NCBI GenBank assembly: GCA_964035545.1 | Contig: OZ037765.1 | Location: forward strand, 34,857,504 to 34,921,503 | Length of the DNA stretch: 64,000 nucleotides | Reading direction: 5' to 3' | Source of the DNA: Bugula neritina | Lineage: Eukaryota > Bryozoa > Gymnolaemata > Cheilostomatida > Bugulidae | In this document: positions 709-51,500 of the stretch, piece after piece | Numbering within the stretch: position 1 is the first letter of the stretch | Layout: each line of letters starts with the position of its first letter | The notes under the pieces: model-generated | Told to the model about the DNA's origin: nothing | Database searches by the model: none | Seen by the model: only the letters and a program-made list of their open reading frames with translations | Made by a program: the position numbers and the translations under genes

Positions 709-852
709 CATGTCTTCACTGAGGAATCTTGAGGTATTCAATATATCAAGGAATAACCTATATGAAGGTCTACCTGACAATATATTCACATCCTTACTAT
801 CATTGAGAGAGTTGAACATGGAGAACTGTGAACTGTCAACTCTACCAAACAG
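709..852 (+). CDS. Gene A LRR cassette 1
   Basis: A 144-nt exon between acceptor TGTTACAG and donor GTGTGT, phase 2 at both ends. It encodes 48 residues, i.e. two LRRs with periods of 25 and 23. Numbering residue 1 as the Ser formed across the acceptor, the exposed residues 35, 37, 39, 40 and 42 are E, N, E, N, E. The second repeat is the same as in cassette 5. Confidence 0.85.
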
Positions 853-3800
853 GTGTGTATTATATTATAGTGTAGAATAATACTGTAATATATATATATA
901 ATATCTCATCAGTAACTCAGCAACTGTCTGCATACATAGCAAAGGTTTCTACAGTTAACACTCAAGTTGAGGATGTTCTGTCAACATTTAAAATTATTCA
1001 AAGTTATTCTATAAAACTCATTTGTTAACTGGCATTTTAACTTAACCAGTTCTAAGTCTATGATTTGTCTATACAAGAAACTGCTTTCTCTGTTTGTTAG
1101 AGTTATCTTCCCTCTAATATAACCAACTGTCACTCACACTTCTGTTATGTCATATTGGACCTCTGCAGTTCAAACCAAGCTGTCACACAACTTATTTAAA
1201 TTCTCTCCAAATTCTCATTTACTACTTGACTACTAACTGACTTCGTTAATTCTCAGTCTATGATTTACCAAATCCTAGACTACAGAATGAGTTCATACCT
1301 GTATGTTGTTTTACAGCATATTTTCACTGAAGAATATTGAGGTATTGAATATATCAGATAATAACCTATCTGAAGGTCTACCTGACAATATATTCACATC
1401 CTTACCATCATTGAGAAAGTTGTACATGAATTACTGTGAACTGTCAACTCTACCGAACAGGTGTGTATTATATTATAGTGTAGAATGATACTGTAATAAA
1501 TATATATATTGTTCTTGCAAATTATATTACTTTGATACTGGAAAGGTCTGAGTTTGTAGTTTTTAATCTCGTTTCTAATATATATTATCATATCACTCAC
1601 TCTAGCACTCCATACCAACCATATGAAACTCAGGCAGATTAGAATGTTGCTGTCCTCACCATGTAACTGATATTTCATATACCTGTATGTTATGTTACAG
1701 CATGTCTTCACTGAGGAATCTTGAGGTATTCAATATATCAAGGAATAACCTATCTGAAGGTCTACCTGACAATATATTCACATCCTTACTATCATTGAGA
1801 GAGTTGAACATGTTGCGCTGTAAGCTGTCAACTCTACCAAACAGGTGTGTATTATATTATAGTGTAGAATGATACTGTAATATATATAATATCTCATCAG
1901 TAACTCAGCAACTGTCTGTATACATAGCAAAGGTTTCTACAGTTACACTCAAGTTGAGGATAGTCTGTTGAGACTAGAGCTAAGCTGTCAGCGTGTCAGC
2001 ATTTTCCATGATATTTTCTTAATTCTGTGTATTTCCTGCCTGTTTTAGCTGTGAGTCATTTAGGAAGGCGAATTGCATTTTTGTTGGTTAGAAGGGATAG
2101 GATTTCTACTTGATAGCTTACCATGTGTACAGTACTAATTCCTGTGTACTCTGAAGCTAGGATATTTCTGATCAGCTATCAGATTTACAAATTGTTAGAT
2201 GCTACAGAATTTGGGGTTTAGAGTTCAGACAATAGTTTGTATACAAACACTGCACCCTACGACCCCAAGCTTTGTGCTGCATTCATCAATTCCCATCAGA
2301 TTTTATCCCATGCAGTTGTTGGTTGTTGAGTGCTGATTGGCTGAGTTGTTCCGCTTGTATCACGTGCTGCAAGCCTGAATGTTTTCTCTTTTACTGGAAG
2401 TTCATTTATTCAGTTTAAAAAACCACAATCATAAACATGAAGGGTGGTTTGCCTTCTTCCATCTATAAGTAGAACATATAATTGGTTGTTGAATGCAAAC
2501 AAGTCTGACCCTCCTACCTGTCAGGGACTTGAAGTGAATATCTTTCAACCATTGGTTGGTGAGTAATATCTCTGTGCATAACACAGATGTTACAGGATTT
2601 AATTCACTTAGCCATATCTCTACACAGAGCTGGCCACCAGAAGTGGTGCTGAGTCCTCACTCTACACTCATGTACCCCCTGATGGCCCTTGTGACACATT
2701 TCTAAATATCCTGACTGTAGAAAGACTAGGGAATGTACACCCTGGACTTGTACATTAGCATGTTATTATAAGCTTGTAAATAATGTAGGACTGTATAAAG
2801 CTGTGTTAGCCCACCTGTCAAACCGCTACCATTTTTTGGTCGTGCAAATTCTATTACTATTATACTGATATGGTCTGAGTTTGTAGTTTGTAGTGTCGTT
2901 TCTAATATTTATTATCATATCACTCACTCTAGTACTCAATACCAACCATATGGATCTCAGACAGATTAGAATGTTGCTAACCTCACCATGTAACAGATCT
3001 TTCATACCTGTATGTTATGTTACAGCATGTCTTCACTGAAGAATCTTGAGGTATTGAATATATCATGGAATAAGCTATCTGAAGATCTACTTGACAATAT
3101 ATTCACATCCTTACTATCATTGAGAAAGTTGAACATGAGTTACTGTGAACTGCCAACTCTACCAAACAGGTGTGTAATATATTATAGTGTAGAATGATAC
3201 TGTAATATATATATAATATCTCATCAGTAACTCAGCAACTGTCTGCATACATAGCAAAGGTTTCTACAGTTAACACTGAGGTTGAGGATACTCTGTTAGG
3301 ACTTAAGCTAAGCTGTCAGCATTTAAGCATTTTCCATGATAATTTTTTATTTCTGTGTATTTTCCACCTGCTTTTAGCTGTGAGTCATTCAGGGAGGTGA
3401 ATTGCATTTTTGTTGGTTAGAAGGGATAGGATTTCTACTTGATAGCTTACCATGTGTACAGTACTAATTCCTGTGTACTCTGAAGCTAGGATATTTCAGA
3501 TCAGCTATCAGATTTACAAATTGTTAGTTGCTACAGAATTTGGGGTTTAGAGTTCAGACAATAGTTAGTATACAAACACTGCACCCCACGACCCCAAGTT
3601 TTGTGCTGCACTCATCAATTCCCATCAGATTTTATCCCATGCAGTTGTTGGTTGTTGAATGCTGATTGGCTGATTTGTTCTGCTTGTATCACGTGCTGCA
3701 AGCCGGAATGTTTTCTCTTTTGCTGGAAGTTCATCTATTCAGTTTAAAAAACTACAATTATAAACATGAAGGGTGGTTTGCCTTCTTCCATCTATAAGTA

Positions 3801-6800
3801 CAACATATAATTGGTTGTTGAATGCAAACAAGTCTGACCCTCCTACCTGTCAGGGACTTGAAGTGAATATCTGTCAACCATTGGTTGGTGAGTAATATCT
3901 CTGTGCATAACACAGATGTTGCAGGATTTAATTCACTTAGCCATATCTCTACACAGAGCTGGCCACCAGAAGTGGTGCTGAGTCCTCACTCTACACTCAT
4001 GTACCCCCTGATAGCCCTTGTGACACATTTCTAAATATCCTGACCGTATAAAGGCTAGGGAATATAAAGGTCTGAGTTTGTAGCTTTTAGTCTCGTTTCT
4101 AATATGTATTATCATAGCACTCACTCTAGTACTCAATACCAACCATATGGATCTCAGACAGATTAGAATGTTGCTAACCTCACCATGTAACAGATATTTC
4201 ATATCTGTATGTTGTGTTACAGCATATCTTCACTGAGGAATCTTGAGGTATTGAATATATCAGATAATAACCTATATGAAGGTCTACCTGACAATATATT
4301 CACATCCTTACTATCATTGAGAGAGTTGAACATGGAGAACTGTGAACTGTCAACTCTACCAAACAGGTGTGTATTATATTATAGTGTAGAATGATACTGT
4401 AATATATATATAATATCTCATCAGTAACTCAGCAACTGTCTGCATACAAAGCAAAGGTTTCTACAGTTACACTCAAGTTGAGGATATTCTGTCAACATTT
4501 AAAATTATTCAAAGTTATTCTATAAAACTCATTTGTTAACTGGCATTTTAACTTAACCAGTTCTCAGTCTATGATTTGTCTATACAAGAAACTGCTTTCT
4601 CTGTTTATTAGAGTTATCTTCCCTCTAATATAACCAACTCTGTCACTCACACTTCTGTTATGTCATATTGGACCTCTGTAGCTCAAACTAAACTGTCACA
4701 CAACTTATTTAAAGTTTCTCCAAATTCTCATTTACTACTTGACTAATAACTGACTCCGTTAACTCTCAGTCTATGATTTGCCAGATCCTAGGCTATAGAA
4801 TGAGTTCATACCTGTATGTTATGTTACAGCATGTCTTCACTGAGGAATCTTGAGGTATTGGATATATCAAGGAATAACCTATCTGAAGGTCTACCTGACA
4901 ATATATTCACATCCTTACTATCATTGAGAGAGTTGGACATGGGGTACTGTAAACTGTCAACTCTACCAAACAGGTGTGTATTATATTATAGTGTAGAATA
5001 ATACTGTAATATATATAATATCTCATCAGTAACTCAGCAACTGTCTGCATACATAGCAAAGGTTTCTACAGTTACACTCAGGTTGAGGATATTCTGTTGA
5101 GACTAGAGCTAAGCTGTCAGCATTTAAGCATTTTCCATGATAATCTTTTATTTCTGTATCATGTGCTGCAAGCCGGAATGTTTTCTCTTTTACTGGAAGT
5201 TCACCTATTCAGTTTAAAAAAGTGCAATTATAAACATGAAGGGTGGTTTGCCTTCTTCCATCTATAAGTACAACATATAATTGGTTGTTGAATGCAAACA
5301 AGTCTGACCCTCCTACCTGTCAGGGGCTTGAAGTGAATCTTTCAACCATTGGTTGGTGAGTAATATCTCTGTGCATAACACAGATGTTGCAGGATTTAAT
5401 TCACTTAGCCATATCTCTACACAGAGCTGGTCACCAGAAGTGGTGCTGTGCCCTATCTCTACATTCATTTACCCCCTGATGGCCTTGTGGCACATTTCTA
5501 AATATCCTGACTGTAAAGACTAGGGAATATACACTCTGGACTTGTACATTAGCATATTATTATAAGCTGGTAAATAATGTAGGACTGTATAAAGCTGTGT
5601 TAGCCCACCTGTCAAACTGCTACCATTTTTTGGTCGTGCAAATTCTAATACTTTTATACTGATAGGGTCTGAGTTTATAGTTTGTAGTGTCGTTTCTAAT
5701 ATTTATTATCATATCACTCACTCTAGTACTCAATACCAACCATATGGATCTCAGACAGATTAGAATGTTGCTAACCTCACCATGTAACAGATATTTCATA
5801 TATGTATGTTGTGTTACAGCATGTCTTCACTGAAGAATCTTGAGGTATTGAGGATATCATGGAATAACCTATCTGAAGGTCTACCTGACAATATATTCAC
5901 ATCCTTACTATCATTGAGAGGGTTGAGCATGCAGAGCTCTGAACTGCCAACTCTACCAAACAGGTGTGTATTATATTATAGTGTAGAATGATACTGTAAT
6001 AAATATAATATCTCATCAGTAACTCAGCAACTGTCTGCATACATAGCAAAGGTTTCTACAGTTACACTCAGGTTGAGGATATTCTGTTGAGACTAGAGCT
6101 AAGCTGTCAACGTGTCACATTTAAGCCATTTTCCATGATAATTTTTTAATTTTATGTATTTCCCCGAATTGCATTTTTGTTGGTTAGAAGGGATAGGATT
6201 TCTACTTGATAGCTTACCATGTGTACAGTACTAATTCCTGTGTACTCTGAAGCTAGGATATTTCAGCTCAGCTATCAGATTTGTGACACATATCTAAATA
6301 TCCTGACTGTAGAAAGACTAGGGAATGTACACCCTGGACTTGTACATTAGCATATTATTATAAGCTGGTAAATAATGTGGGACTGTATAAAGTTGTGTTA
6401 GCCCACTTGTCAAACTGCTACCATTTTTTGGTCGTGCAAATTCTATTACTTTGATACTGATAGGGTCTGAGTTTGTAGCTTTTAGTCTCGTTTCTAATAT
6501 TTATTATCATAGCACTCACTCTAGTACTCAATACCAACCATATGAAACTCAGGCAGATTAGAATGTTGCTAACCTCACCATGTAACAGATATTTCATATC
6601 TGTATGTTGTGTTACAGCATGTCTTCACTGAAGAATCTTGAGGTATTGAATATATCAGGGAATAACCTATCTAAAGGACTACCTGACAATATATTCACAT
6701 CCTTACTATCATTGAGAGAGTTGACCATGAGGAACTGTAAACTGCCAACTCTACCAAACAGGTGTGTATTATATTATAGTGTAGAATGATACTGTAATAA

Positions 6801-9800
6801 ATATATCATCAGTAACTCAGCAACTGTCTGCATACATAGCAAAGGTTTCTACAGTTACACTCTGGTTGAGGATATTCTGTTGAGACTTAAGCTAAGCTGT
6901 TAGTAATTTCTATGACATCACAGCTGCCATAAGGCTTTGGTTTACTGGTCATAAAATAATTTAAGCTTTCATTAGTTTATGTATTTGAATTTTTAATAAT
7001 TTGGCTCAAAGTTTGGGTATCTAATAAATTTTATCTAGCAAAAATAGAAGCAGAATAAGTGGTAGTAAAATTATCATTGAACGTCAACACTGACTCAACC
7101 ATGTTTTTTTACACTTTCATGCAGCTGGTAGAATTGAAAACACAATTGTTTTCTTTTTTGTTCAATGCAAGACAACTTTGTACGGGTTGCATAGGAAGGA
7201 GTAGTTTTTTATTCAATTCCATGGAAGAGTAGCACATTGGATAAAGTTATGTTAGCAGATTTAACTAAATACTTTTATTCATTTTCACCCTTACTATTGT
7301 AAGTTATGTAGATAATACCAAATCTAATTTTAATTAGTGGAGTATTAGATATACTACCCAGCTGCAGGCTAGGATAGCTATACAATAACTATTTACAGTG
7401 TGCAGTAATATATATATTATGTGGTATAAACAGAAATAATTATTAAGATATGATTATTAGATTGTGTGAACAATGCATAGAATACTGTGATATCTGGTAA
7501 CAACATTTACCAGATATCCACAAAATATATATTTCTATATCAACAAACCCTGCCTTTGTTTGAACTCTCTATTATTTGTGATGTTTACCAAAGCAGTTCA
7601 TACAAAGGTCAAGGATACATTCTTTAACTATAATATATAACCATTCTATAACTTTCTATATTACCCATTAATGTAATGAATATATTTGCAATGTTAACTT
7701 CTAGACATTATCACTCAACAAAGAGGGTGCTCTTATTTTTGCATGAAGTCAAATTTTTGATATAAAAGTTATCATGTGATAGTAAAGACACTACAACTTG
7801 TACTGACAGTGTATAGTGTTCTATTTACTAGCATGCAGAGTCTACAGAAGTTGGAGATACTGGAAATACCAGATAATAAGTTCACCAGTTTACCATCTCC
7901 TGTGTGCCCACTGAGTAGTCTGCAGAAACTGAATATATCCTCCAATAAGTCCCTGACATCCTTAGATCCTGAGATACTACAGCTAACTCAACTTCGTACA
8001 CTGTATGTATATGGTTGTAATGCTCTCACCTCTCCTCCACCAGAAGTATGTGAGAGAGGAGTAGATGCTGTGAGACAATATTACACAGACTTGGCTGAAG
8101 GTGCTGGTAGAAGTCTTCCATTTGCTACTATAGCTGTGCTGGGTAATACGATGGCTGGGAAGACCAGTCTAATCAGAACATTACAGAATGCTGGCCGAAA
8201 GAGAGTTCTGACCGACAGAGGACCAGATGCTGTGAGAGATGAGACAACAAAGGTGTTTAATGTTGAAGAAGTGGAGGTGGATGGTACAGTACTCCGTGTC
8301 ATTGATATGGGAGGCCAGGAGGTCTACCATATCACCTATCAACTGACACTGAGACAGAACTGTATTCCAGTCATAGTAGTCAACATGGAACAGTATGAGG
8401 AGATTTCAAGTGAATCAACACACAGAGAAGCTGTTAGAAGATTAGCCTTTGATTACATGTCTCACCTCTATCTGGCTAACCCAACTCTGGGTGCTCCAAA
8501 ACTTATCTTCACACATAAAGATAAGTTTCAAAATGCAGAATTCCAGAAGCTTCGAAAAAACTTTCTAGAAACTTCCAATCAACTGTGTGAGGAAATGATT
8601 AGAGAAGAGAAAGCATTGGGTGGAAAATTTGCTCAAATCAAACATTTTAGTGAATCAACTGAAGGAGTCTTTCTTGGTGAGGACATTTATGAGGTGGGGA
8701 AAGATGATACGTATGAAGTGTTTGACCTGATCAAGGAGTCTCTTCTTCAAAGCAGTCAACATTTTGTGAAACCTTTACCTTTGGTCTGGGAGGAAATGAA
8801 TGAAAAAGTGCTCTCTATTTCCTCTGTGTACAGCACTTTTGATGAGATACTGAACTATGTGCAAACCGAACTTCAACACATTGAGTCAAGTCAGCTGGAC
8901 ATAATCCTCACACACATGCATGACTGCGGCAAAGTCTTGTGGTATAAAGATATCAGCTCTCTCCGGCCATACATATTCCACAAAATTTCACAAGTCACCA
9001 AACTTCTCTGTGTCTTGTATCATCATGATCCTAGCATATGGCAGAGTAGAGTTGACAAGTTCCAGCCATGTTTTTCAGAGGACGGGATGCCTGTTGAAAA
9101 AGAAGACTTTGAGAGATTTGTTAATCATTTCACTGAGACTGGTTTGATGATGCAATGCCTTCTCATTCATCTGGTTAAACAAGAAACATTATTTACCAGT
9201 CTGGAAGACGTAGAAGTTGCTGTTTGCTTGCTTCGCACATTCCGTTTGTTATATGGTCCTTTACCTGGTGATTCCAAGGAGCCCTGCTTTATTGTTCCCC
9301 AGTTTGCTAACGACCTCTTTGATACCTCTCACTCCTCACCAAAAAACATGCTCCTTCGAGTTGAAACTAAATTCAATGGTCTAGCCCTGCCACACTATGT
9401 TTACCACCAGATGATTGTTGGGTTGTTGGAGCTGTTTCCAGACGAGTTTGCCGTGATTGAAGTGAGAAGAAATGGAGCCAATGTCTATCAAGATGGGATC
9501 TACACACAGCTGGTACACGACTATACATCTAGAAAGGTGTTGCTCTACGTATCATCTAATGCTGCCAACATCAGCAGAATGTGGGAGAGACTCATCACCG
9601 CCAACAAAAACATCCTTAGACATGTTCTAGAAACTTGGACGGCAAGTAGACCAGTCACTACATGCTACTGTGCTCACTGTCTTCTGCTAGGACTTCCTTG
9701 TCCTAAGAAAGTGATGAATCCTCCATGGTGTCTTCGTTCCTTGAAACATTCCACACCACGTCCCGGACTGTGTAGTGGATCTTCAACAACTCTGTGTGGT

Positions 9801-12709
9801 TATGAGGAGATACCGAGTGCTTTTCTCTATCCATGTATGTTTACATTCAGTTTGAAGTGAATATCTAGTTTTGCTCGCTTTCAGCAGTCTTTCCACTATT
9901 TATGTTCTGATAGTAATAAACATATAACTTCCATGTGGTAACTGACAGTTTTTCATTCTCTAGGCAGTCCTCTCTCTCCAGAAGAAGCTGATAACATAAA
10001 AGAACGCGTCAACAAACTGAGATCTGCAAGAGAAGAGACTGCTTCAACTGTCCCTGGTATGATCAGTTTTCTATCATAAACTGTCACTGTTAGAAGTAAC
10101 ATCCTCTGCCTGAGCTCAGTCATATGTAAACAGCAATAGACAAGAACTCATGACACTCAGTTATATAGAACAAGATCACTCAGCTTCAGTTATTGTAATT
10201 GATCTATATAATTACTGATTAAAAGTGGAAAATATGATTCTGTTCCTGGTTTACAGTCATTTTGATACTTAGTATATCTTTTACTTATTAGCACTGAACA
10301 TATCTCCTTTTTTGTTTATTTTAGTACTGGGTGAAGATGATAACCTCAGTGAATGCTCTGATGTAGAAGAGGAAGGATATGCTGATTTTACTAAAGATGA
10401 CCTTGAACCTTTCATATCTCTAGTTGAGGGTATGCAGCTGAAACCTACCATCAGTGAACGAGTTAGACAGAAGTTTGACAACCACCAGCAGGTAAAGCAA
10501 ATAATATTGTCTCTGACTATTTCCTAAATCATTGAATATTTTTTGAAAAATATTGGGTTACATCACATAATTTCAAAAAAATGTGATTTTTATTCTATTT
10601 ATCCACTTTTAGTAAGATAAAATTGATTGGTTTACAGGTTTATGCGATGAGTAACCCTGTTAGAGGTCGTGTCATGATCATAAACAATGAGAGATTCTTT
10701 AGAGATGATGGCAGTGAACTGACTGAGGCAACCCGAGATGGTTCATACATTGACTTTGTTAACATCAAAACTCTGTTGAAAGACATGGGATTTGTTGTAG
10801 CCAATGAAGCTGATCCTCTGTTTGACCTGAGTAAACAGGTTACTGTATCAATCTCTTATCTTTTTGTGTAGTTCATTCTCCCTAGGGCCTATAGACTGTC
10901 ACTAGCTGTCAAATACTATCCAGTACAGAGATGTATTGTAGTCCAACAAGTCTACACCATGGTGTTCAAATTAATAGTGTTATAATTTTACAATTATAGT
11001 GCGTGGGTTCTATTGTGCGTAGCTAGTATTCACTTCTAGTTAAGCAATCACTTGGGTAGTAGCCGGATAATAGTCTTTATTATTTAACTCAAACACAATA
11101 CAAAACATCACTCTAAATTACAATACAACAATAGCCATATAATACGTGCATTCAATCTGAGTCCTCGCTCACGACAGCCTAACTATACGGAGGAACTCTC
11201 ACTTGCCAAGAGCCCGCCTTCAAGTCCTTCTCATTGGATGGTTTGCCGTGACCTTTCTCCTATAAATGTGTCCTTTAGTATTCTCCAAACAGAAGGAAGA
11301 TAATTCTACATTATTATATTATGCAAATCCACCACAATAGTTTTTGTCAGTTTTGATTTTTAGTTTAGCACTACTTATTATTTTACCTTTGTGATAAATA
11401 TTTCAATATAGCTTTGAAGCAGCTTTGGCTTGGGTGTAGACACATTTACTTATCCTAACTTGCTTTTACACACCATTATATGCTTTTATTTTGCCAGGAG
11501 ATATTATCAGAAGTGAGGAAGGAGACCACCCACAGAGACCACAAAGATCTTGGCATGTTCATTCTAGTCATCATGTCACACGGAACTTCTGGAAACATCT
11601 TCTATGACAGACACTGTAAACCTGTCAACTTGTCAGAAGTCAAAGATTTACTCTCAGCTAGTAAATTTTCTGCCATGAGAGGAAAACCCAAACTCATCAT
11701 CTTCCATGCCTGTTCTGGCAGTGAGTAATGCAGAGTTGTTCCTCATGTTACTAGAACTAGCAGTTATATTGCATAATTTCCTATAACTATTACATTAATT
11801 AACTTAAGAAATCATTATTTTCAAGATGCCTAATGTTATTGGAGTATGCCTATGTGGAAGTGAGCTACACCTCATAACTAGAATTCAATAAACAGTGCTG
11901 TGTAATAGAGTTCTGCTTGTGAATCCAGTCCTAAGTTATTACTCACTATCATACCACAGAGTCTACATTATATGTATTTCGTATACAGGCAGAGCTGACT
12001 TTGGTAATGCTGCACAGTCACAAAGCCCAGACACCGTCTCACCACCAACACCAACCCCTCTACCCTCATCTTCTGCAACAGCTGGGAGTGAGTCTTCTGC
12101 AGGTCAACATGTGTCTCCAAATATTCACTTTGATAGATTCACTCACCTGGATGCTGATGACTTCTACATTGTGAAGCCAAGTACAGAAAGTTAGTGAGAA
12201 GAAAATTATATTTGAGTTGACTGAAACTTATATAATTTGCACAAATTAAAATATTTGTTGCATGTAAACAAAATTGTTGCAAGTTTTAAATATAAAATAA
12301 TTTACATAATAATTTGACATTCATATTTAACTGCTCATTTTCATGTGTTACAGCTTACAAGGCTGGTAGGAATGAGAATTATGGTACCTGGTTTATCAGA
12401 GTACTGGTGGCTACATTCTACAGACACAGCTGTCACAGAGATGTTAGTGAGCTGTTTAGGATAGTAAGTACTTCAGTATTACTCTTTGTATGATACTGTG
12501 GAGTGTGTTGAGTCATCAGCTTTATATTTCTCTTCTATTTATACTTACAGATACAAGACAGAGTTAGAAGAGTCAGTATTGCATATTGTAAGAAGACAGG
12601 AGATGAAGCAGCTGGTGGTAATGTACCTAATTGTCAGGAATGTACTTTCACTCACCTCAGAAAACTTTTCTTCTTTCCAAAGTTCCATGGCAGACAACTC
12701 CCACAGTGA
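709..12709 (+). CDS. Gene A: LRR-Roc-COR-caspase fusion protein (5' partial)
   Basis: Multi-exon gene built from eight 144-nt LRR cassettes, one 2,003-nt LRR-Roc-COR exon and seven downstream exons, with stop TGA at 12707-12709. All joins use GT-AG sites and keep one frame; the visible exons sum to 1,436 codons plus stop. Domain order is LRRs, Roc (P-loop GNTMAGKT, switch DMGGQ, THKD), COR, acidic linker, caspase p20 (SHG histidine, HACSG cysteine) and caspase p10. In known families, LRRs bind ligands, Roc-COR is a GTP-dependent dimerisation switch, and caspases are Cys/His proteases. I infer a cytosolic receptor that couples recognition to proteolysis, perhaps in immunity or cell death. The start lies left of the window; by analogy with gene B it should be a short first exon plus an N-terminal LRR exon. 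Which cassettes are used in a transcript is unknown. Confidence 0.85.
1317..1460 (+). CDS. Gene A LRR cassette 2
   Basis: 144-nt phase-2 exon, acceptor TTTTACAG, donor GTGTGT. Exposed residues 35, 37, 39, 40, 42 are K, Y, N, Y, E. It is the most divergent framework of the array (IFSLKNIEV at the start, S-to-P change before the second repeat). Confidence 0.82.
1701..1844 (+). CDS. Gene A LRR cassette 3
   Basis: 144-nt phase-2 exon with the standard acceptor and donor. The first repeat nearly matches cassette 1, but exposed residues 35, 37, 39, 40, 42 are E, N, L, R, K. Confidence 0.85.
2437..2725 (-). mobile_element. Ty3/Gypsy-type integrase relic in LRR intron (copy 1)
   Basis: Minus-strand remnant of an integrase zinc-binding region (H..H..CxxC type), recognised because it is the same sequence as the clearer copy near 26510-26794. 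It is broken by stops and lies in the intron between cassettes 3 and 4. It appears to have been duplicated together with the cassettes. Confidence 0.6.
3026..3169 (+). CDS. Gene A LRR cassette 4
   Basis: 144-nt phase-2 exon. Exposed residues 35, 37, 39, 40, 42 are K, N, S, Y, E; residue 15 is W. It has LLDN instead of LPDN in the loop, and its donor reads GTGTGTAATA rather than GTGTGTATTA. Confidence 0.83.
3755..4050 (-). mobile_element. Ty3/Gypsy-type integrase relic in LRR intron (copy 2)
   Basis: Minus-strand copy of the same integrase fragment. A short open stretch reads HKGYQGVHECR then FWWPALCRDMAK before a stop, matching the H2C2 integrase pattern. It lies in the intron between cassettes 4 and 5. 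Confidence 0.65.
4223..4366 (+). CDS. Gene A LRR cassette 5
   Basis: 144-nt phase-2 exon. Exposed residues 35, 37, 39, 40, 42 are E, N, E, N, E, as in cassette 1. The intron after it also matches the intron after cassette 1, so cassettes 5-6 look like a block duplicate of cassettes 1-2. Confidence 0.85.
4830..4973 (+). CDS. Gene A LRR cassette 6
   Basis: 144-nt phase-2 exon. Exposed residues 35, 37, 39, 40, 42 are E, D, G, Y, K; residue 12 is D and residue 15 is R. Confidence 0.85.
5225..5525 (-). mobile_element. Ty3/Gypsy-type integrase relic in LRR intron (copy 3)
   Basis: Third minus-strand copy of the integrase fragment, in the intron between cassettes 6 and 7. It has small deletions compared with the other copies. 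Confidence 0.55.
5820..5963 (+). CDS. Gene A LRR cassette 7
   Basis: 144-nt phase-2 exon. Exposed residues 35, 37, 39, 40, 42 are G, S, Q, S, E. It is the only cassette in which the conserved Cys 41 is replaced (by Ser). Confidence 0.84.
6618..6761 (+). CDS. Gene A LRR cassette 8
   Basis: 144-nt phase-2 exon, the last before the Roc-COR exon. Exposed residues 35, 37, 39, 40, 42 are E, T, R, N, K. The following intron is homologous to the intron after cassette 11 of gene B. Confidence 0.85.
6762..7831 (+). other. Gene A intron between last LRR cassette and Roc-COR exon
   Basis: About 1.07 kb of AT-rich sequence with no exon. It aligns along its length with the gene B intron 49235-51090, apart from small indels and the MITE found only in gene B. 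The position matching that MITE insertion is the unoccupied ATT at 7619-7621. Confidence 0.75.
7832..9834 (+). CDS. Gene A large exon: LRR, Roc GTPase and COR
   Basis: A 2,003-nt exon from acceptor TACTAG to donor GTATGT, in phase with the cassettes (AG|C gives Ser). Order: about three LRRs; the LRR-Roc linker CERGVDAVRQYY; Roc with P-loop GNTMAGKTS near 8140-8166, switch-II DMGGQ near 8305 and G4 THKDK near 8512; COR-A from about 8755 (PLVWEEMNEKV, then CGKVLWYKD and YIFHKISQVTKLL); and COR-B from about 9290 with a Cys-rich CYCAHC plus PCP element near 9660. Roc-COR domains are GTP-dependent dimerising switches, as in LRRK2 and bacterial Roco proteins. All nucleotide-binding motifs look intact. 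The gene B exon has the same length and is about 90% identical in protein by eye. Confidence 0.92.
9964..10056 (+). CDS. Gene A linker exon 1
   Basis: 93-nt exon, phase 1 in and out, encoding SPLSPEEADNIKERVNKL followed by an RSAREE stretch. It is charged and likely helical, between COR and caspase. Gene B has an exon of the same length and phase but little sequence identity. Confidence 0.75.
10325..10491 (+). CDS. Gene A linker exon 2 (acidic)
   Basis: 167-nt exon, phase 1 in and 0 out, donor CAG|GTAAAG. It starts with a strongly acidic segment (GEDDNLSECSDVEEEG) and ends in a basic helix (ISERVRQKFDNHQQ) leading into the caspase. The gene B counterpart is also acidic (NEDLSDLSDDEENL). An activation linker is plausible but not shown. 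Confidence 0.78.
10638..10838 (+). CDS. Gene A caspase p20, first half
   Basis: 201-nt exon, phase 0. It encodes the start of a caspase fold: RGRVMIINNERF (first beta strand), TRDGSYIDFVNIKTLL with the Arg expected to line the S1 pocket, and DMGFVV. This matches the caspase pattern G-x-x-L-I-I-N-N ... R-x-G-s-x-x-D ... L-G-F. Confidence 0.88.
10996..11340 (-). mobile_element. Solo LTR with CTAT target duplication
   Basis: Element 11000-11336 (337 bp) reads TGTGGTGGAT... to ...CCCACGCA on the minus strand, so it has TG..CA ends. It contains an AATAAA on that strand and is flanked by a 4-bp direct repeat, ATAG on plus (10996-10999 and 11337-11340). It sits in the intron between the two p20 exons of gene A. 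No internal retroelement sequence remains, so this is a solo LTR. Confidence 0.72.
11498..11720 (+). CDS. Gene A caspase p20, catalytic half (His, Cys)
   Basis: 223-nt exon, phase 0 in and 1 out, donor A|GTGAGT. It carries both catalytic residues: MSHGTSG (His) and IIFHACSGS (Cys). In the canonical QACxG pentapeptide, Gln is replaced by His here. The gene B exon has exactly the same length and phase. Confidence 0.9.
11989..12189 (+). CDS. Gene A caspase inter-subunit linker exon
   Basis: 201-nt exon, phase 1 in and out. It begins RADFG after the catalytic Cys, continues with a Pro/Ser/Thr-rich low-complexity stretch, and ends LDADDFYIVKPSTES, which matches the start of the caspase small subunit. 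Several Asp residues (for example LDADD) could be cleavage sites; this is inference. Confidence 0.82.
12354..12463 (+). CDS. Gene A caspase p10, first half
   Basis: 110-nt exon, phase 1 in and 0 out. AGRNENYGTWFIRVLVATF matches the caspase p10 signature (R-N-...-G-S-W-F-I), including the Arg that helps bind the P1 Asp in canonical caspases. Confidence 0.86.
12551..12709 (+). CDS. Gene A caspase p10, last half and stop
   Basis: 159-nt terminal exon, phase 0, ending TGA at 12707-12709. It encodes IQDRVRRVSIAYCKK, then CQECTFTHLRKLFFFPKF, which matches the caspase C-terminal strand (TLxKxLYF). Confidence 0.86.
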   Translation: MQDRVRRVSIAYCKKTGDEAAGGNVPNCQECTFTHLRKLFFFPKFHGRQLPQ

Positions 12710-24500: not shown

Positions 24501-27500
24501 CTCTCATACTGGTTAGAAGTTATGACAAGTTAGTTCAGAGTGATCAGTAATAATTTTTGCAGAAGCTTATTTCCAACAAAAATTAGAGCAGCATGGAACA
24601 TTTATAAGTTCAGCTTTGAATATAACTTAGTTCAGCATTGAGCATATCTAAGATCATCATTGAACAGAAATAAGATCATCATTAAACATATATAATATCA
24701 CTATTGAGCATAAATAAGATCACCATTGAACATATATAATATCACTATTGAACATAAATAAGATCACTATTAAACATATATAATATCACTATTGAGCATA
24801 AATAAGATCACTGTTGAAAATATTTAAGCTCACCATTGAACATATATAAGATCACCATTGAACATAACTTGGCTCATTGTGATAAATACAAAGAATCAAC
24901 TTCACAACTCTTTATATCAACATTGATCTAACATACTATTCACTGTGAACAGTACCTGACACTAATTTCTATTCACTGCTGGTCAATTTAGGAATCCAAA
25001 AAACGAGCTGTTTTAGTTGTCAGCTAATGTTCACTCTAACACTAATATTTCTCTCTGTGAAGTTGAGGTATTTCAACATGATTTACTGGCCAGTGGCATA
25101 CTGTGTATAATCAGTTAGTCAAACTGATTATTATTATTTATGAAGTGGTGGATATTTTGTAGAGAAGTACAGTGTGTGGTTCAACACATCCAGTATAGAT
25201 GGGGCTGATGATGAGTGGATGTGGAAAAGTACTACACCCTACACTATAGAAGAGATCAAGAAGAAAAGTAGACATCATACAGTTACTCATGTTAGACTGG
25301 TGTATGACATTCCTCCAAATATCAACACACTGTTTCCTCATCTCACACATCTGAGGGTATCTGGAGTATACAGGAATGCTGCCTGGACCAGGTATGATAT
25401 TGTGTCCAACACATGCAGTATAAGAGAAGAAAATGAGAAGTTCTTGTCAGTGGTGAAGTTTGAACCCTTACAGTAGTAAATACCCCCTTATCCACTTTAC
25501 CAGCAGACTATACTTAAATATTAGGTGAATACACACTACACAGAGTACTCCCACCTATTCATACTGTTAGCTAGTATTTAGTGACTATTCATACTGCTAG
25601 CTAGTATTTAGTGACTATTCATACTGCTAGCTAGTATTTAGTGACTATTCATACTGCTAGCTAGTATTTAGTATTATAGTATAGAATGATACTGTAATAT
25701 ATATAATATCCCATCACCGAATCATCTATCTAGTTCTCAATCTATCATATATTAGTATTTAGGTTATCTTTAGAGTTATCTTTGTTTTCATATCTGTATG
25801 TTATGTTACAGCATATCTTCACTGAAGAATCTTGAGGTATTGGATATATCAGATAATAACTTATCTGACGGTCTACCTGACAATATATTCACATCCTTAC
25901 TATCATTGAGAAGGTTGTACATGGTGAGGTGTAAACTGTCAACTCTACCAAACAGGTGTGTATTATATTATAGTGTAGAATGATACTGTAATTTAAATAA
26001 TATCTTATCAGTGACTCAGCAACTGTCTGGATACATAGCAAAGGTTTCTACAATTAACACTCAGGTTGAGGATATTCTGTTGAGACTAGAGCTAAACTGT
26101 CAGGTCAGCGTGTAGCATTTAAGCCATTTTCTATGATAATTTTTTAATTTTGTGTATTCCCCCCCAATTGCATTTTTGTTGGTTAGAAGAGATAGGATTT
26201 CTACTTGATAGCTTACCATGTGTACAGTACTAATTCCTGTGTACTCTGAAGCTAGGATATTTCAGATCAGCTATCAGATTTACAAATTGTTAGATGCTAC
26301 AGAATTTGGGGTTTAGAGTTCAGACAATAGTTTGTATACAAACACTGCACCCTACGACCCCAAGCTTTGTGCTGCATTCATCAAATCCCATCAGCTTTTA
26401 TCCCATGCAGTTGGTAGTTGTTGAGTGCTGATTGGCTGATTTGTTCTACTTGTATCACGTGCTGCAAGGCCGAATGTTTTCTCTTTTACTGGAAGTTCAT
26501 TTATTCAGTTTAATAATTACAATTATAAACATGAAGGATGGTTTGCCTTCTTCCATCTATAAGTACAACATATAATTGGTTGTTGAATGCAAACAAGTCT
26601 GACCCTCCTACCTGCCAGGGGCATATTGAAGTGAACCTTTCAACCATTGGTTGGTGAGTAATATCTCTGTGCATAACACAGATGTTGCAGGATTTAATTA
26701 ACTTAGCCACATCTCTACACAGGACTGGCCACCAGAAGTGGTGCTGAGCCCTCACTCTACATTCATGTACCCTCTGATGGCCCTTGTGGCACATTTCTAA
26801 ATATCCTGACTGTAAAGACTAGGGAATATACACTCTGGACTTGTATATCAGCATATTATTATAAGCTGGTAAATAATGTAGTACTGTAAAAAGCTGTGTT
26901 AGCCCACCTCTCAGACTGCTTCCATTTTTGGTCGTGCAAATTCTATTACTTTTATACTGATAGGGTCTGAGTTTGTAGTTTTTAGTCTCGTTTCTAATAT
27001 ATATTATCATAGAAGTTAGTAGTCTCTATAATAGAACTTACATATGACTCAATGTCACCATTTGATTCCTCTAGGGCATAATTTCACAGTATCTCGTCCT
27101 CAGACATAACACTTATGTACCAATACGAGATACATTACATCATAATTAAATGTTGTCTATCGGCAAAAATTTTGCAGTAGCCAATCATAGTACTATAACA
27201 GGGCAGTCTGAGTGTAGTATCTCGTTTATCCGCATAATTATAATAGCCCGTAGTTGAAGATGGAGTTGGAAGCTTTTCAAATACCTCCCGCATATAATAG
27301 CATTTATGCTAGTCCTTAAAACTAAATAAACATTATGGTAGACCAATAATCATGAAAGCTCTACTCATTTGTAACTGGAGGATTTGTAGCACCACAATAC
27401 TAAATTTCTTGCATTGGAGGTGCTTAGGCTGTGTTGTCATAGTGATATGTACTTATTGGGGCTTGGTATAAAATTAAACCTGACAATTATAAGGAGTAAG

Positions 27501-45500: not shown

Positions 45501-48500
45501 TAAAATCATTGAGAGTTTTATGAAGGTCTATTTGTGTATAGGTAGCCCTATGTCACAACTCAAGTTTTTAGATTTTATGCAATTTGTGGTGCAAAGTTGC
45601 AAATAAAAACCTTATTTTAATAATACTTAGACATATGCAAGCAATAAAGATAATGAAAAAAATGCTATAGTTGCTAATTAGCTAATATTACTTGCATATG
45701 ATGCAAATATTTGTATGCATGCATGTTTAGTTTGTTAGCATTGGTTAGATATAATTGAATATATAGATTTGATGTGGAGATTGAAGAAAATCAATATGTT
45801 GTGTTCTATATACAACAACAGTTTTTACATTGGTTTGTTAATTACTTCATAAATCATTTATTACTTCATGCAATATTTGTTCCTGCAACTTTGCAGAGTG
45901 GCAAAATGCATTTCAAAGACATATATTAAGTGATTTTAATTATACTAGAATTTTCAAACTAAGAATTTTTGTGGAGTTTTCTTCTTCCTAAGACATATGT
46001 GGCAATTGAACACATAATAAGTTGTGGGCTACAACTCCTTTATACAACCTTGCAAGAAATTATGCAGCTATTAATTAAATAGAAAAGGAATTATTGAATT
46101 TATTTATTCAACATTATTAGTATTTTATAAATATTTGTTGCATTTAATTAATGAGCATAAAATTTGTTTTACAAATACTGTAATTAACAGCATGGTAAAA
46201 ATATATTATATATACTGGTATATATTTTGTATTGTATTAGATTTAGGCTACATTGCAAGACATTTATAATTAAAATGAGTTAATGGCTAAGTTTAAATAT
46301 CTTCGACTTATAGATTACATTTTTATGTGCTATAAAAATTTAACTCGTTTGTTACGACATTTCTCCCTGCATAAAAGCAAAACTTACTGCAAGAAATCCT
46401 TAGCTAGAAAGATAAATAATAATTTACTTCAATTACATCAAAAGCTAATATCAGCCAGCATTCTATAAATAATGGTAATTTACCTAGTGTAATTTTTCTT
46501 AAACTAGCTAAGCTTGCTTGGTACTTTAATAAGTTTATTGGCATAGTGTATTATTTTATACTTATATATTTTTAAGACTTTAAGGAAAATGATGTTTTAG
46601 CTTCGTTATTCCTAATGCAAGCCTTATAAATTTACAATATATACTAAAATATTATATTTGTAATCAGAAAGAAAACAAATTACTTTCATAAACTTATAAT
46701 TATTGCATTCTGTTATTGTTAATGCTAGAATAACAAATTGAACACGGCATATGCTTCGCTAACCAGATGCTTTTAAACGGATTAAAAATAATTTGTCAAT
46801 TTCTAATTATGAGGAACAAACTCCTCGATAGTTTCTACATTTGCGCATGATTTTATCAAGATAGGCTTGTTTTTGTGTCAACCTGTAGCCAGTGCAACTA
46901 TACTTTATGTAACGAGTAAAACAGACTCATTTCAAAGTACACAGTCTAAAGGGTAGGAATTACTACAAAGAAAAGTGCCGGTTAAAAGTTAATTATAATT
47001 GGAAATAAGGTGAGATATCAGTCAGAAATTAAAAAGTGTCAACTAAAAAGGTGTATTTTTATTTCTTTTTGGCTTAATGAAAATGTTTTTTGAGGAAGAA
47101 GTACGAGAAACATCTAGGAGGGGTTCATATCCACCACTGGCGACTACCTGTTTATTGATGAAGAACTATCCAATGATAGTACAGTATTATGGTCTTTTGC
47201 CTTATAATTGGCTTTGATTTTTTTATGTCTAATTACGAGATACTAAACAGATGCAAAGTATGTTGTGCATAGGCAGTTTTTTTATGTCTCTAAACAACAT
47301 TCTAGGAAAATATATACTGGATTCCTCACACTGCTTGCAATGTGGGTAGGCCTACTCAGTGTCTCAGCTCTGAACATGTCTTTGCCATTTCTTTGCCTTT
47401 ATCAGTGTTCTCCTCTCCCTAGATAATATCTCTTGGTTCTCACTGTAAATATATATCTCTGTTTCTTGAGCTCACTCTAGCACTCAATACCAGCCATATG
47501 AAACTCAGACAGATTAGAATGTTGCTGTCCTCACCATGTAACAGATATTTCATACCTGTATGTTACGTTACAGTATGTCTTCACTGAAGAATCTTGAGGT
47601 ATTGAATATATCATGGAATAACCTATCTGAAGATCTACCTGACAATATATTCACATCATTACTATCATTGAGAAAGTTGCACATGTGGGACTGTGAACTG
47701 TCAACTCTACCAAACAGGTGTGTATTATATTATAGTGTAGAATGATACTGTAATATATATATATAATATCTCATCAGTAACTCAGCAACTGTCTGCATAC
47801 ATAGCAAAGGTTTCTACAGTTACACTCAGGTTGAGGATAGTCTGTTGAGACTAGAGCTAAGCTGTCAGCGTGTCAGCATTGTTCATGAGATTTTTTAATT
47901 TTGTGTATTTTCCGCCTGCTTTTAGCTGTCAGTCATCAATGAAAGTGAATTGCATTTTTGTTGGTTAGAAGGGATAGGATTTCTACTTGATAGCTTACCA
48001 TGTGTACAGTACTAATTCCTGTGTACTCTGAAGATAGGATATTTCAGATCAGCTATCAGAGTTACAAATTGTTAGATGTTACAGAATTTGGGGTTTAGAG
48101 TTCAGACAATAGTTTGTATACAAACACTGCACCCACGACCCCAGGCTTTGTGCTGCATTCATCAATTCCCATCAGATTTTATCCCATGCAGTTGGTGGTT
48201 GTTGAGTGCTGATTGGCTGATTTGTTCCACTTGTATCACGTGCTGCAAGCCCGAATGTTTTCTCTTTCACTGGAAGTTCATCTATTCAGTTTTAAAAGTT
48301 ACAATTATAATTATGAAGGGTGGTTTGCTTTCTTCCATCTATAAGTACAACATATTGTTGTTGAATGCAAACAAGTCTGACCCTCCTACCTGTCAGGGAC
48401 TTGAAGTGAATCTTTCAACCATTGGCTGGTGAGTAATATCTCTGTGCATAACACAGATATTGCAGGATTTAATTAACTTAGCCATATCTCTACACAGGGC

Positions 48501-51500
48501 TGGCCACCAGAAGTGGTGCTGAGCCCTCACTCTACATTCATGCACCCTCTAATGGCCCTGATAGCACATTTCTAAATATCCTGACTGTAAAGACTAGGGA
48601 ATATACACCCTGGACTTGTACATTAGCATATTATAAGCTAGTAAATAATGTAGGACTGTATAAAGCTGTGTTAGCCCACCTATCAAACTGCAACCATTTT
48701 TTGGTCGTGCAAATTCTATTACTTTTATACTGATAGGGTCTGAGTTGGTAGTTTTTAGTCTCGTTTCTTATATTTATTATCATAGAGGTTAGTAGTCTTT
48801 ATGATAGAACTTACATATGACTCAATGTCACCATTTGATTCCTCACACTGCATGTAATGTGGGTAGGCTTACTCAGTGTCTCAGCTATGAACATGTCTTT
48901 GCCATTTCTTTGCCTTTATCAGTGTCCTCCTCTCCCTAGATAATATCTCTTGGTTCTCACTGTGAATATATACCTCTGTTTCTTGAGCTCACTCTAGCAC
49001 TCAATACCAACCATATGAAACTCAGGCAGATTAGAATGTTGCTGTCCTCACCATGTAACAGATATTTCATACCTGTATGTTATGTTACAGCATGTCTTCA
49101 CTGGAGAATCTTGAGGTATTGGTAATATCAGGGAATTACCTATCTAAAGGTCTACCTGACAATATATTCACACCCTTACTATCATTGAGAGAGTTGAACA
49201 TGACGCACTGTGGACTGTCAACTCTACCAAACAGGTGTGTATTATATTATAGTGTAGAATGATACTGTAATATATATATATATAATATCTCATCAGTAAC
49301 TCAGCAACTGTCTGTATACATAGCAAAGGTTTCTACAGTTACACTCAAGTTGAGGATATTCTGTTGAGACTTAAGCTAAGCTGTTAGTAATTTCTATGAC
49401 ATCACAGCCGCCATAAGGCTTTGGTTTACTGGTCATAAAATAATTTAAGCTTTCGTTAGTTTCTGTATTTGAATTTTTTAAAACTTAGCTCAAAGTTTGG
49501 GTATCTAATAAATTTTATCTAGCAAAAACAGAGGCAGAATAAGTGGTAGTACGTGGAATTATCATTGGACGTCAACACTGACTCAACCATGTTCTTTTAC
49601 ACTTTCATTCATCTGGTAGAATTGAAAGCACAATTGTTTTTTTTGTTCAAGGCAAGACATCTTTGTACAGGAAGGAGTAGTTTTTTAGTCAATTCCATGG
49701 AAGAGTAGTGATGTGCACATTGGATAAAGTTATGTTAGCAGATTTAACTGAATACTGGTATTCATTTTCACCCTTACTATTGCAAGTTATGTAGATAATA
49801 CCAAATCTAATTCTAATTAGTTGAGTATTAGATACTACCCAGCTGCAGGCTAGGATAGCTATACAATAACTATTTGCAGTGAACAGTAATATATATCATT
49901 TGGTATAAACAGAAATGATTATTAAGATATGATTATTAGATTGTGTGAACAATGCATAGAATACTGTGATATCTAGTGACAACATTTACCAGATGACAAC
50001 TAAATATATATTTCTATATCAACAAACCCTGCCTTTGTTTGAACTCTCTATTATTTGTGATGTTTGCCAAAGCAGTTCATTCAAAGGTCAAGGACACATT
50101 CACCGGCTTTCCATGTACCGATCTCAGGTCGATCTCAGCGAGATCGATCCATGGAAAGACGCCAAAGATCGATCTCCGTCGATCTGAGCTGGTCGGTCTG
50201 TGGAGCTCGAACTCAGATCGATCTCATGTCAATAAGACCATGGAAAGACGCCAGATCGATCCGAAAAGTAGAAAAAGACTGTGCGCTACAATGTTGTCTG
50301 CTAATAAAAATGATAACTTATTGATAATTACTAAGCAAAGTATTAAATAATTATGATAGCCACCTTTTCAAATGCTAAAACTTTGACTTTCAATACAATG
50401 ATTAAGAAAACGCAATTATATGCAGTAGAAGGTAAAAAAAATGGGAGAATTTAAATTGAATTTAATTCACTATTAAAACTTAGTTTCATTGGCTATTTTC
50501 TTTATAATTTCAAGCCTAACAGTCTTGTTAGTTTATTAATAATCTGCAAGACAGCCATTAATTTTATATAAGCTGTCAAGCTAAAAAATTAAAATTAATT
50601 ATTTTAAATTGGCCAAATCACCATACACTGAAAGCTTTGCTGCGTAAAGTTTATAGCTGAAATTAAATTTTAGACTAGGACCATCTTGTTTTCAACAGTA
50701 GTAGTTTTAATCACTCAAATAGGTGAACAAATTATACTTTTAAAGTATTCTTCACTTAAGAGGAGGCAACTTCGCGAGATCGATCTGACACTCTCATGGA
50801 AAAACGATCGATCTGAGCACATCTCTCAGATCGATCTTAGCGAGATCGATCTGAGATCGGTACATGGAAAGCCCGTGATTGTTTAACTATAATATATAGC
50901 CATTTTATAACTTTCTATATTACCCATTATTGTAATGAATATATTTGCAATGTCAACTTCTAGACATTATCACTCAACAAAGATGGTGCTCTTATTTCTG
51001 CATAAAATCAAATTTTTGATATAAAAGCTATCATGTGATAATAAAGATGCTTCAACTTGTACTGACAGTGTATAGTGTTCTGTTCACTAGCATACAGAGT
51101 CTACAGAAGTTGGAGGAACTGGACATATCATATAATAACTTCACGAGTTTACCATCTCCTGTGTGCACACTCAGTAGTCTGCAGAAACTGGATATATCCT
51201 CCAATAAGTCCCTGACATCCTTAGATCCTGAGATACTACAGCTAACTCAACTTCGTACACTGTATGTTGGATATTGCTCTGCTCTCACATCTCCTCCAAT
51301 AGAAGTATGTGAGAGAGGAGTAGATGCTGTGAGACAATACTACACAGACTTGGCTAAAGGTGCTGGTAGAAGTCTTCCATTTGCTACTATAGCTGTACTG
51401 GGTAATACGATGGCTGGGAAGACCAGTCTAATCAGAACATTACAGAATGCTGACAGAAAGAGAGTTCTGACCAACAGAGGGCCAGATGCTGTGAGAGATG

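Follow-up and report, generated by a model that had tools for sequence, protein, structure and literature searches.

Roco proteins use ROC-COR as a nucleotide-dependent assembly switch. The source on brown algal ROCO genes, a close precedent for the layout considered here, cites Zambounis 2012. In those genes, leucine-rich repeat (LRR) exons of 72 bp in phase 2 carry four positively selected concave sites and are subject to exon shuffling (PMC11378527). The HNWD/NLR (NOD-like receptor) repeats of Podospora (het-d, het-e) show concerted evolution within and between loci with four surface codons under diversifying selection, and shuffling raises the supply of mutations (PMC1805685). Among animals, CARD and death domains occur in ROCO proteins of placozoans (PMC4104024), and ROC-COR in two Aplysia Toll-like receptors (TLRs) (PMC9334734). 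We analysed a 64,000-nt window of the bryozoan Bugula neritina (34.86-34.92 Mb of contig C1, 35.6 Mb long), with searches run over the whole 216-Mb assembly. The window holds eleven nearly uniform LRR exons ("cassettes"), most of them assigned to two genes that would also encode a ROC-COR stretch and a caspase.

The sequence is best explained if the cassettes are exons of a multigene family with the order LRR array, LRR, ROC GTPase, COR, linker and caspase. About nine cassette codons would be under diversifying selection and the rest under purifying selection, with cassettes exchanged. We give this reading a probability of about 0.77. The pattern is real and its cause is ordinary evolution; the surprise lies in the kind of gene family that carries it.

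Cassette exons and their variable codons

Each cassette is a 144-nt exon coding for two LRRs. All 11 in the window lie on the plus strand (tblastn, E<1e-18), with matches starting at 710, 1324 (exon at 1317), 1702, 3027, 4224, 4831, 5821, 6619, 25813, 47575 and 49092. The initial annotation spoke of eleven cassettes under the coordinates 709..6761. That interval, which runs from an exon start to an exon end, holds eight; the other three begin at 25812, 47574 and 49091.

709..852, plus strand: LRR cassette exon of gene 1, with two LRRs in 144 nt, phase 2-2; AG/GT borders, open frame
1317..1460, plus strand: LRR cassette exon of gene 1; tblastn, AG/GT borders, open frame
1701..1844, plus strand: LRR cassette exon of gene 1; tblastn, AG/GT borders, open frame
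3026..3169, plus strand: LRR cassette exon of gene 1; tblastn, AG/GT borders, open frame
4223..4366, plus strand: LRR cassette exon of gene 1; tblastn, AG/GT borders, open frame
4830..4973, plus strand: LRR cassette exon of gene 1; tblastn, AG/GT borders, open frame
5820..5963, plus strand: LRR cassette exon of gene 1; tblastn, AG/GT borders, open frame
6618..6761, plus strand: LRR cassette exon of gene 1; tblastn, AG/GT borders, open frame
25812..25955, plus strand: isolated cassette of the same kind, not assigned to a gene; tblastn, cassette reading
47574..47717, plus strand: LRR cassette exon of gene 2; tblastn, joined gene 2 model
49091..49234, plus strand: LRR cassette exon of gene 2; tblastn, joined gene 2 model

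The lone cassette at 25812-25955 precedes the gene 2 cassettes by about 21 kb, and its flanks resemble those of gene 1 cassettes.

Across the assembly, 150 of 767 candidate matches were scored. Most lie at 32.5-35.3 Mb of C1 and 14.3-17.3 Mb of C5, and the others on C3, C7, C8 and elsewhere on C1. We left out 43 gapped alignments and merged readings that were identical including their 40-bp flanks, which reduced 178 readings, some of them from overlapping loci, to 161 cassettes. Cassettes with indels are therefore missing from the set, and loci L043, L044, L071, L074 and L075 gave none. The borders read AG in 161/161 (one base before the first codon shown) and GT in 159/161 (after the last AG), and none of the 161 distinct cassettes has a stop codon, indel-bearing ones having been left out beforehand. 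As both borders fall after codon base 2 (phase 2-2, symmetric), adding or skipping a cassette keeps the frame. Excluding the 25 cassettes with E>=1e-16 left 136 (135 distinct exons) for the diversity and third-base counts, the exon-internal pairs and the linkage analysis. Comparisons of flanks and between genes drew on all 161 or on named genes.

The LRR consensus LxxLxLxxNxL and the structural meaning of its positions define a concave face, and ten concave positions were set from it independently of the observed variability. Amino-acid diversity in the 135 distinct exons is highest at codons 14, 38, 39, 36, 41, 11, 43, 16 and 34 (0.89 to 0.44), followed by codon 18 at 0.34. Of the eight codons among the 48 that vary most, seven belong to this concave set (p=1.2e-5, hypergeometric; p=5.9e-6 by rank test). 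The earlier residue strings match the 11 cassettes exactly once the codon numbers are lowered by one. The accompanying claim, that variation is confined to the LRR surface, holds beyond chance but imperfectly: codon 43 is variable (0.57) though outside the concave set, and the concave codons 9 and 13 vary little (13: 0.26).

Three clocks (exon-internal, intron flanks and ROC exons) all point to positive selection on these codons, supporting from sequence comparison the diversifying selection on a recognition-type surface that had been proposed from the 11 cassettes. Inside the exon, 63 disjoint nearest pairs gave a proportion of nonsynonymous differences (pN) of 0.199 and of synonymous differences (pS) of 0.110 at concave codons, with 0.029 and 0.057 in the framework. 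Nearest-exon pairs were dropped as a flank clock because picking by exon similarity yields flanks that often cannot be aligned, and flank-matched pairs were used in their place. The resulting intron clock consists of 33 disjoint pairs (of 102) with both flanks less than 10% different. Flank divergence in these pairs is 0.039; framework pS is 0.042 and pN 0.035, and the hypervariable (HV) codons have a pS of 0.117 and a pN of 0.278. Relative to the flanks, HV pN is raised 7.2-fold (bootstrap 6.1-8.5) and framework pS 1.1-fold (0.8-1.5). In the eight closest pairs (flanks 1.5%), the corresponding ratios are 12.2 (7.8-15.8) and 1.4 (0.4-2.6).

The ROC-exon clock, the mildest of the three and without an interval, rests on 20 pairs among seven C1 genes (g1, g2 and L080-L084), without the recent pair L080/L081 (pS 0.029). 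ROC exons are under purifying selection in these pairs (pS 0.152-0.293; dN/dS, the ratio of nonsynonymous to synonymous rates, 0.23-0.45). Between-gene cassettes of the same seven genes have a pooled HV pN of 0.376, rising to 0.489 at five core codons (497 pairs). HV pN is at or above ROC pS in 20/20 gene pairs, the tightest being 0.295 vs 0.293, and pooled HV pS (0.121) falls below the ROC-exon pS range. Exposed LRR positions are generally tolerant, and the surface codons could simply be free of constraint, with no positive selection. However, neutrality limits such ratios to one, and with HV pN 7.2-fold over intron divergence and matching or exceeding ROC pS in every gene pair, relaxed constraint is scarcely credible unless strong constraint acts on the flanks too.

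It should also be noted that two recently duplicated genes at 34.229 and 34.296 Mb of C1 (L035/L061 and L036/L032; ROC pS 0.029) already carry different cassettes. In one flank-matched pair (L032 608 / L061 248), the exons differ by one codon, changed at all three bases.

Third bases were the other subject of the initial annotation. Its counts in the 11 cassettes are exact after the same renumbering (G at codon 34 in 11/11, C at 36 in 11/11, G at 38 in 9/11, C at 39 in 10/11, A at 41 in 10/11). Its rule that only codon bases 1 and 2 change does not extend to codon 14, where the third base is G in 8 and T in 3 of the 11. The rule is looser still in the 136 cassettes, with G 81 and T 45 at codon 14 and G 88 and T 36 at codon 38. 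The third base is kept at codons 34, 36 and 41 (128, 127 and 124 of 136) and not at 14, 16 and 38. Diversity at bases 1, 2 and 3 is 0.62, 0.60 and 0.53 at codon 14 and 0.61, 0.60 and 0.51 at codon 38. Third-position change as frequent as that at the first and second positions had been named as evidence against the idea; two codons come close to it, and the selection reading gains from this.

Over the nine variable codons, 196 third-base departures divide into 58 synonymous and 138 nonsynonymous, or 42 transitions and 154 transversions. The 235 departures in the framework divide the opposite way, into 177 synonymous and 58 nonsynonymous, or 166 transitions and 69 transversions (Fisher p 8e-22 for synonymous/nonsynonymous and 3e-25 for transition/transversion, on counts of sequences, which are not independent events). 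This pooled pattern is not expected of a process blind to the protein and therefore indicates selection on the residue. Nor does a third base fixed beside two varying ones need a mutator, since low synonymous divergence combined with residue selection is enough.

Alternatively, a targeted mutator (resembling a diversity-generating retroelement, a deaminase or other), active in germline or soma, could have rewritten the first two bases of particular codons in an otherwise uniform exon template. This would fit a framework that is nearly uniform across the seven C1 genes even at synonymous sites, a codon 36 that keeps C in 127/136 while bases 1 and 2 vary, and triple changes in 16/297 HV codon comparisons vs 0/1287 in the framework. 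Against it, third bases at codons 14, 16 and 38 vary mostly where the residue changes, HV departures are mostly residue-changing transversions with the framework reversed, and framework synonymous change proceeds at the intron rate. Furthermore, framework third-position A is kept in 95.3%, which argues against an adenine-targeted mutator of the retroelement type, and variable codons also differ at G, T and C positions. Judged from the cassette sequences, the targeted diversification process raised in the initial annotation is therefore very improbable.

Probable exchange between cassettes

In the 20 gene pairs, cassette framework pS is 0.007-0.080, well below the ROC-exon range given above. 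Between genes, then, the frameworks resemble one another more closely than the ROC exons do, which suggests exchange. Cassettes only 3-6 exon differences apart can have barely alignable flanks, with mismatch going from 0.105 beside the exon to about 0.3 at 180-200 nt. These flanks speak for exchange at about exon size, in pairs that were picked for exon likeness. Among the pairs listed with flanks 1-4% different, some have 10-23 exon differences and some none; fast HV change accounts for most of the flank-similar, exon-different pairs.

Conversion of whole HV sets in blocks was considered and rejected, as the HV codons are near linkage equilibrium and the 135 exons carry 125 distinct six-codon sets in the second LRR. 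Codons 38-39 are clearly linked (z 6.8; next z 3.3). Identical six-codon sets occur in 10 pairs vs a shuffle mean of 1.7 and a maximum of 9 in 300 shuffles, which indicates some block sharing, whether from exchange, recurrent change or both.

Predicted ROC-COR and caspase exons

Both genes are predicted to continue downstream of their cassettes, in exons that the initial annotation did not describe.

7832..9834, plus strand: LRR-ROC-COR exon of gene 1; Pfam LRR_4 6.7e-8 and Roc 6.5e-7, open frame, splice borders
9964..10056, plus strand: linker exon of gene 1; in-frame GT-AG exon with a 93-nt counterpart in gene 2
10325..10491, plus strand: linker exon of gene 1 with an acidic stretch; in-frame joining
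10638..10838, plus strand: first part of the caspase p20, gene 1; Pfam Peptidase_C14 0.0015 by itself (under the cut-off) and 5.4e-27 once the C-terminus is joined
11498..11720, plus strand: second part of the caspase p20, gene 1, holding the catalytic residues His (SHG) and Cys (HACSG); Pfam 2.3e-10, aligned with caspase-3
11989..12189, plus strand: caspase linker between p20 and p10, gene 1; in-frame joining, Pfam of the joined C-terminus
12354..12463, plus strand: caspase p10, first part, gene 1; in-frame joining, caspase-3 alignment
12551..12709, plus strand: caspase p10, last part, gene 1, stop codon 12707-12709; in-frame joining
51091..53093, plus strand: LRR-ROC-COR exon of gene 2; Pfam Roc 3.1e-7, COR-A 0.0043 (below cut-off)
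53273..53365, plus strand: linker exon of gene 2; gene 2 joining
53568..53758, plus strand: linker exon of gene 2; gene 2 joining
53849..54019, plus strand: caspase p20, first part, gene 2; Pfam 9.2e-11
54178..54400, plus strand: caspase p20, second part, gene 2 (THG, VCSG); Pfam 9.4e-11
56050..56220, plus strand: caspase linker exon of gene 2; gene 2 joining
59651..59731, plus strand: probable p10 piece of the gene 2 caspase, left unjoined; tblastn with gene 1 p10, E=3e-6
60717..60758, plus strand: possible final p10 piece of the gene 2 caspase, left unjoined; tblastn E=0.002

The gene 1 exon at 7832-9834 carries on the cassette frame with three LRRs and then the Roc domain. Behind this comes a putative COR stretch, for which Foldseek placed LRRK1 (8e04, 1.7e-14), Chlorobium Roco (6hlu, 2.7e-12) and RocCOR (3dpu, 6.3e-11) among the top matches, at weak template-modelling (TM) scores of 0.19-0.24 and a low mean model confidence (pLDDT) of 62.6. 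Joined in silico, gene 1 is one open frame from the first window cassette to the stop at 12707-12709, with no earlier stop. The joined C-terminus matches Peptidase_C14 at 5.4e-27 over profile positions 1-227 of 233, and caspase-3 is its best relative in the Protein Data Bank (1.1e-19). The gene 1 motifs SHG and ACSG line up with SHG and ACRG in caspase-3; the gene 2 equivalents, THG and VCSG, were identified by reading. The gene 1 C-terminus is thus a complete predicted caspase with both catalytic residues.

Gene 2 repeats the gene 1 layout as far as p20, after which a later intron holds a short-repeat array, followed by the unjoined p10 pieces. In this intron (window 54900-59400), a TTATGTTACAGAGAG-like unit is repeated from about 54.9 kb and a GTGTAATATACT-like unit from about 56.25 kb; both arrays give long spurious minus-strand open reading frames. 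In the three fixed LRRs of the ROC exon (window 7833-8050), paralogues also vary at concave-type positions, as judged by eye from the alignment.

The Roc domain (PF08477) was found at E<=0.01 in 13/13 ROC exons studied, over cut-off in both window genes, and the P-loop residues G104 and A108-S112 are invariant in all 13. Pfam matches of the cassette array, ROC exon and C-terminus included no NACHT or NB-ARC, and those of the cassette array no LRRNT or LRRCT cap family, the N-terminal exon lying outside this coverage. A search of the phage collection gave no match.

Linkage of the two domains was followed through the assembly. The Roc search took in 150 of 338 candidates, a list without the gene 1 ROC exon, from which the 39 with an open frame of at least 450 aa were used. 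The caspase search took in 150 of at least 176 matches. The linkage counts are therefore lower bounds. Among the matches listed, a caspase lies downstream on the same strand within 10 kb of at least 32/39 long-frame Roc matches (distance 2.4-8.7 kb, with 30/32 at 2.4-4.3 kb). In the three other arrangements, over the same distance, the count is 0/39. The same downstream arrangement was seen for at least 11/13 studied ROC exons. For 42 cassette clusters, a listed caspase within 15 kb is downstream on the same strand in at least 24, upstream on the same strand in 5 and on the opposite strand in 0. Long-frame Roc matches followed by a caspase form another large cluster at 3.5-6.2 Mb of C6, with no such cassette there among the matches listed; other LRR exons may serve it.

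The caspase could instead be a separate neighbouring gene, the LRR-ROC-COR protein ending alone. The caspase parts of genes 1 and 2 are too diverged for blastn, and their joining to the ROC exon was predicted from genomic DNA. However, a GT donor lies inside the Cys codon of the YPC motif that ends the ROC exon in both window genes, and the frame then stays open over seven exons as far as the stop in gene 1, and over the five joined exons in gene 2. Y/H-P-C stands at that place in 12/13 ROC exons with divergence after it (eleven of these were trimmed at this motif for the ROC alignment). Together with the same-orientation spacing of the Roc and caspase matches listed, this makes a separate caspase gene improbable.

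Some sequences in the assembly appear to come from other organisms. Roc/Ras-like matches on C58, C90, C99, C36, C144 and C210 lie in frames with TAA and TAG, and none with TGA. Presumably these frames are as in ciliates that read TAA/TAG as Gln, and the assembly may hold a ciliate. One contig (L092, C17) reads like a bacterial cbb3-type oxidase and points to another organism. So does a second mitochondrial-type cox1 (L093, C196), whose two matches are separated by about 2.8 kb; the open frame that lies there is intron-like by reading. The host's own mitochondrial cox1 translates cleanly against its best Protein Data Bank chains (5j4z and 1occ, both mammalian) with TGA=Trp, ATA=Met, AGR=Ser and AAA=Lys. 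This is the invertebrate mitochondrial code, which led us to reject a sponge origin and indicates an invertebrate, probably a bilaterian. A host cox1 copy on a nuclear contig (L091, C6:11174072-11175412), with nine TGA codons in the match, is probably a mitochondrial insertion; C6 also carries ROC-caspase genes.

Weight of the evidence and known systems

Several points weigh against selection with exchange in a single LRR-ROC-COR-caspase family. The sequences compared are paralogues of one assembly, not population alleles. Third-base departures are mostly synonymous at codons 34 (5/8) and 43 (6/7). Constraint on synonymous sites could likewise make cassette frameworks alike, and a test modelled on the pairwise homoplasy index (PHI) found no distance structure within the exon (p=0.64 for framework, 0.97 for all sites), leaving within-exon recombination unsupported. 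COR (PF16095) reaches E<=0.01 in 8/13 ROC exons, with gene 1 (E=0.052) and gene 2 (E=0.0043) both below cut-off, and 7/39 long-frame Roc matches have no nearby caspase among the matches listed. No N-terminal exon was found. For the ROC exon and those after it, borders were picked by eye to fit GT-AG and frame, and splicing was predicted from the genome. Finally, synonymous change is itself raised at the HV codons (pS 0.117 vs 0.042 in the framework), and same-residue synonymous diversity is 0.239 near HV codons vs 0.089 far from them (p=0.004). Older alleles would explain this, and so might a modest local mutation excess.

The first of these explanations leads to another account, in which balancing or frequency-dependent selection keeps old HV alleles, exchange homogenises the framework, and the cassette-clock ratio overstates the speed of change. 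Besides the raised synonymous change, it would fit the barely alignable flanks around cassettes with few exon differences. In flank-matched pairs, though, HV pN is still 7.2x the flank rate with framework pS at that rate, so recent change is fast too. Old diversity as the whole account is possible but unlikely; it can act together with fast recent change and is then a shade of the best explanation.

Under the preferred reading, selection with exchange, selection would favour nonsynonymous change at about nine codons, of which eight lie on the concave (ligand) face. Purifying selection would hold the remaining exon, and gene conversion, unequal crossing over or exon duplication would most likely keep it alike between genes. 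All exons would be spliced into one mRNA. The LRR face of the product would bind variable ligands such as pathogen or non-self molecules; this binding, with nucleotide-driven ROC-COR assembly, would place caspase domains side by side and so set off proteolysis or cell death. Recognition of self/non-self or of pathogens is the usual cause of such selection, and we infer an immune or allorecognition role here.

We see about an even chance that this is an undescribed animal system, in which a germline-diversified, modular array of hypervariable LRRs, a ROC-COR switch and a complete caspase share one polypeptide, coupling recognition directly to caspase assembly. No fused LRR-ROC-COR-caspase appeared in short literature listings on caspase or ROCO expansion or in parts of PMC8195603 and PMC7159879, which is weak evidence of absence. 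If the system is as proposed, an animal built an NLR-like sensor, switch and executioner from ROCO parts, and a surface changing about 7x faster than introns sits in the same chain as a death protease. Symmetric exons would let splicing skip or combine cassettes, giving many receptors per gene. The search for a ligand could then start from a known set of codons, and a convergence of brown algae, fungi and animals on uniform repeat units, exchange and selected contact codons would become directly testable.

The brown algal ROCO genes share the LRR-ROC-COR order predicted here, uniform phase-2 LRR exons (72 bp there; 144 = 2 x 72 here) and positive selection on concave residues, with exon shuffling there and inferred exchange here. 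They differ in belonging to an alga, in having one LRR per exon and in their reported alternative splicing, and the word caspase is absent from the main text (PMC11378527). Uniform phase-2 LRR exons, selected concave sites and Roc occur here too, as a likeness of layout. Tetrahymena likewise has many uniform phase-2 LRR exons spread by exon shuffling, but the unit is 90 bp and the parts of the source used name no ROC-COR or caspase (PMC6564038). Podospora HNWD genes share homogenised repeats with a few diversified surface codons; they differ in having WD40 in place of LRR and NACHT in place of ROC-COR, in a fungus with repeat-induced point mutation (RIP) (PMC1805685, in part). Placozoan ROCO proteins and Aplysia TLRs join ROC-COR to death or immune domains in animals, but the parts of the sources used mention neither a caspase fusion nor hypervariable LRR exons (PMC4104024, PMC9334734).

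PRDM9 zinc-finger arrays also consist of near-identical tandem units differing at contact residues, but they bind DNA through another domain. The likeness to lamprey variable lymphocyte receptors (VLRs) suggested in the initial annotation stands for the exposed surface, as in both cases diversity lies on the LRR concave face. It goes no further than that: VLRs are assembled somatically, whereas the diversity seen here lies between many copies in one assembled genome, in genes with intracellular-type domains. Animal NLRs and the Apaf-1 apoptosome likewise couple sensor repeats and a nucleotide switch to caspase output; here, the switch would be ROC-COR and the caspase part of the same polypeptide.

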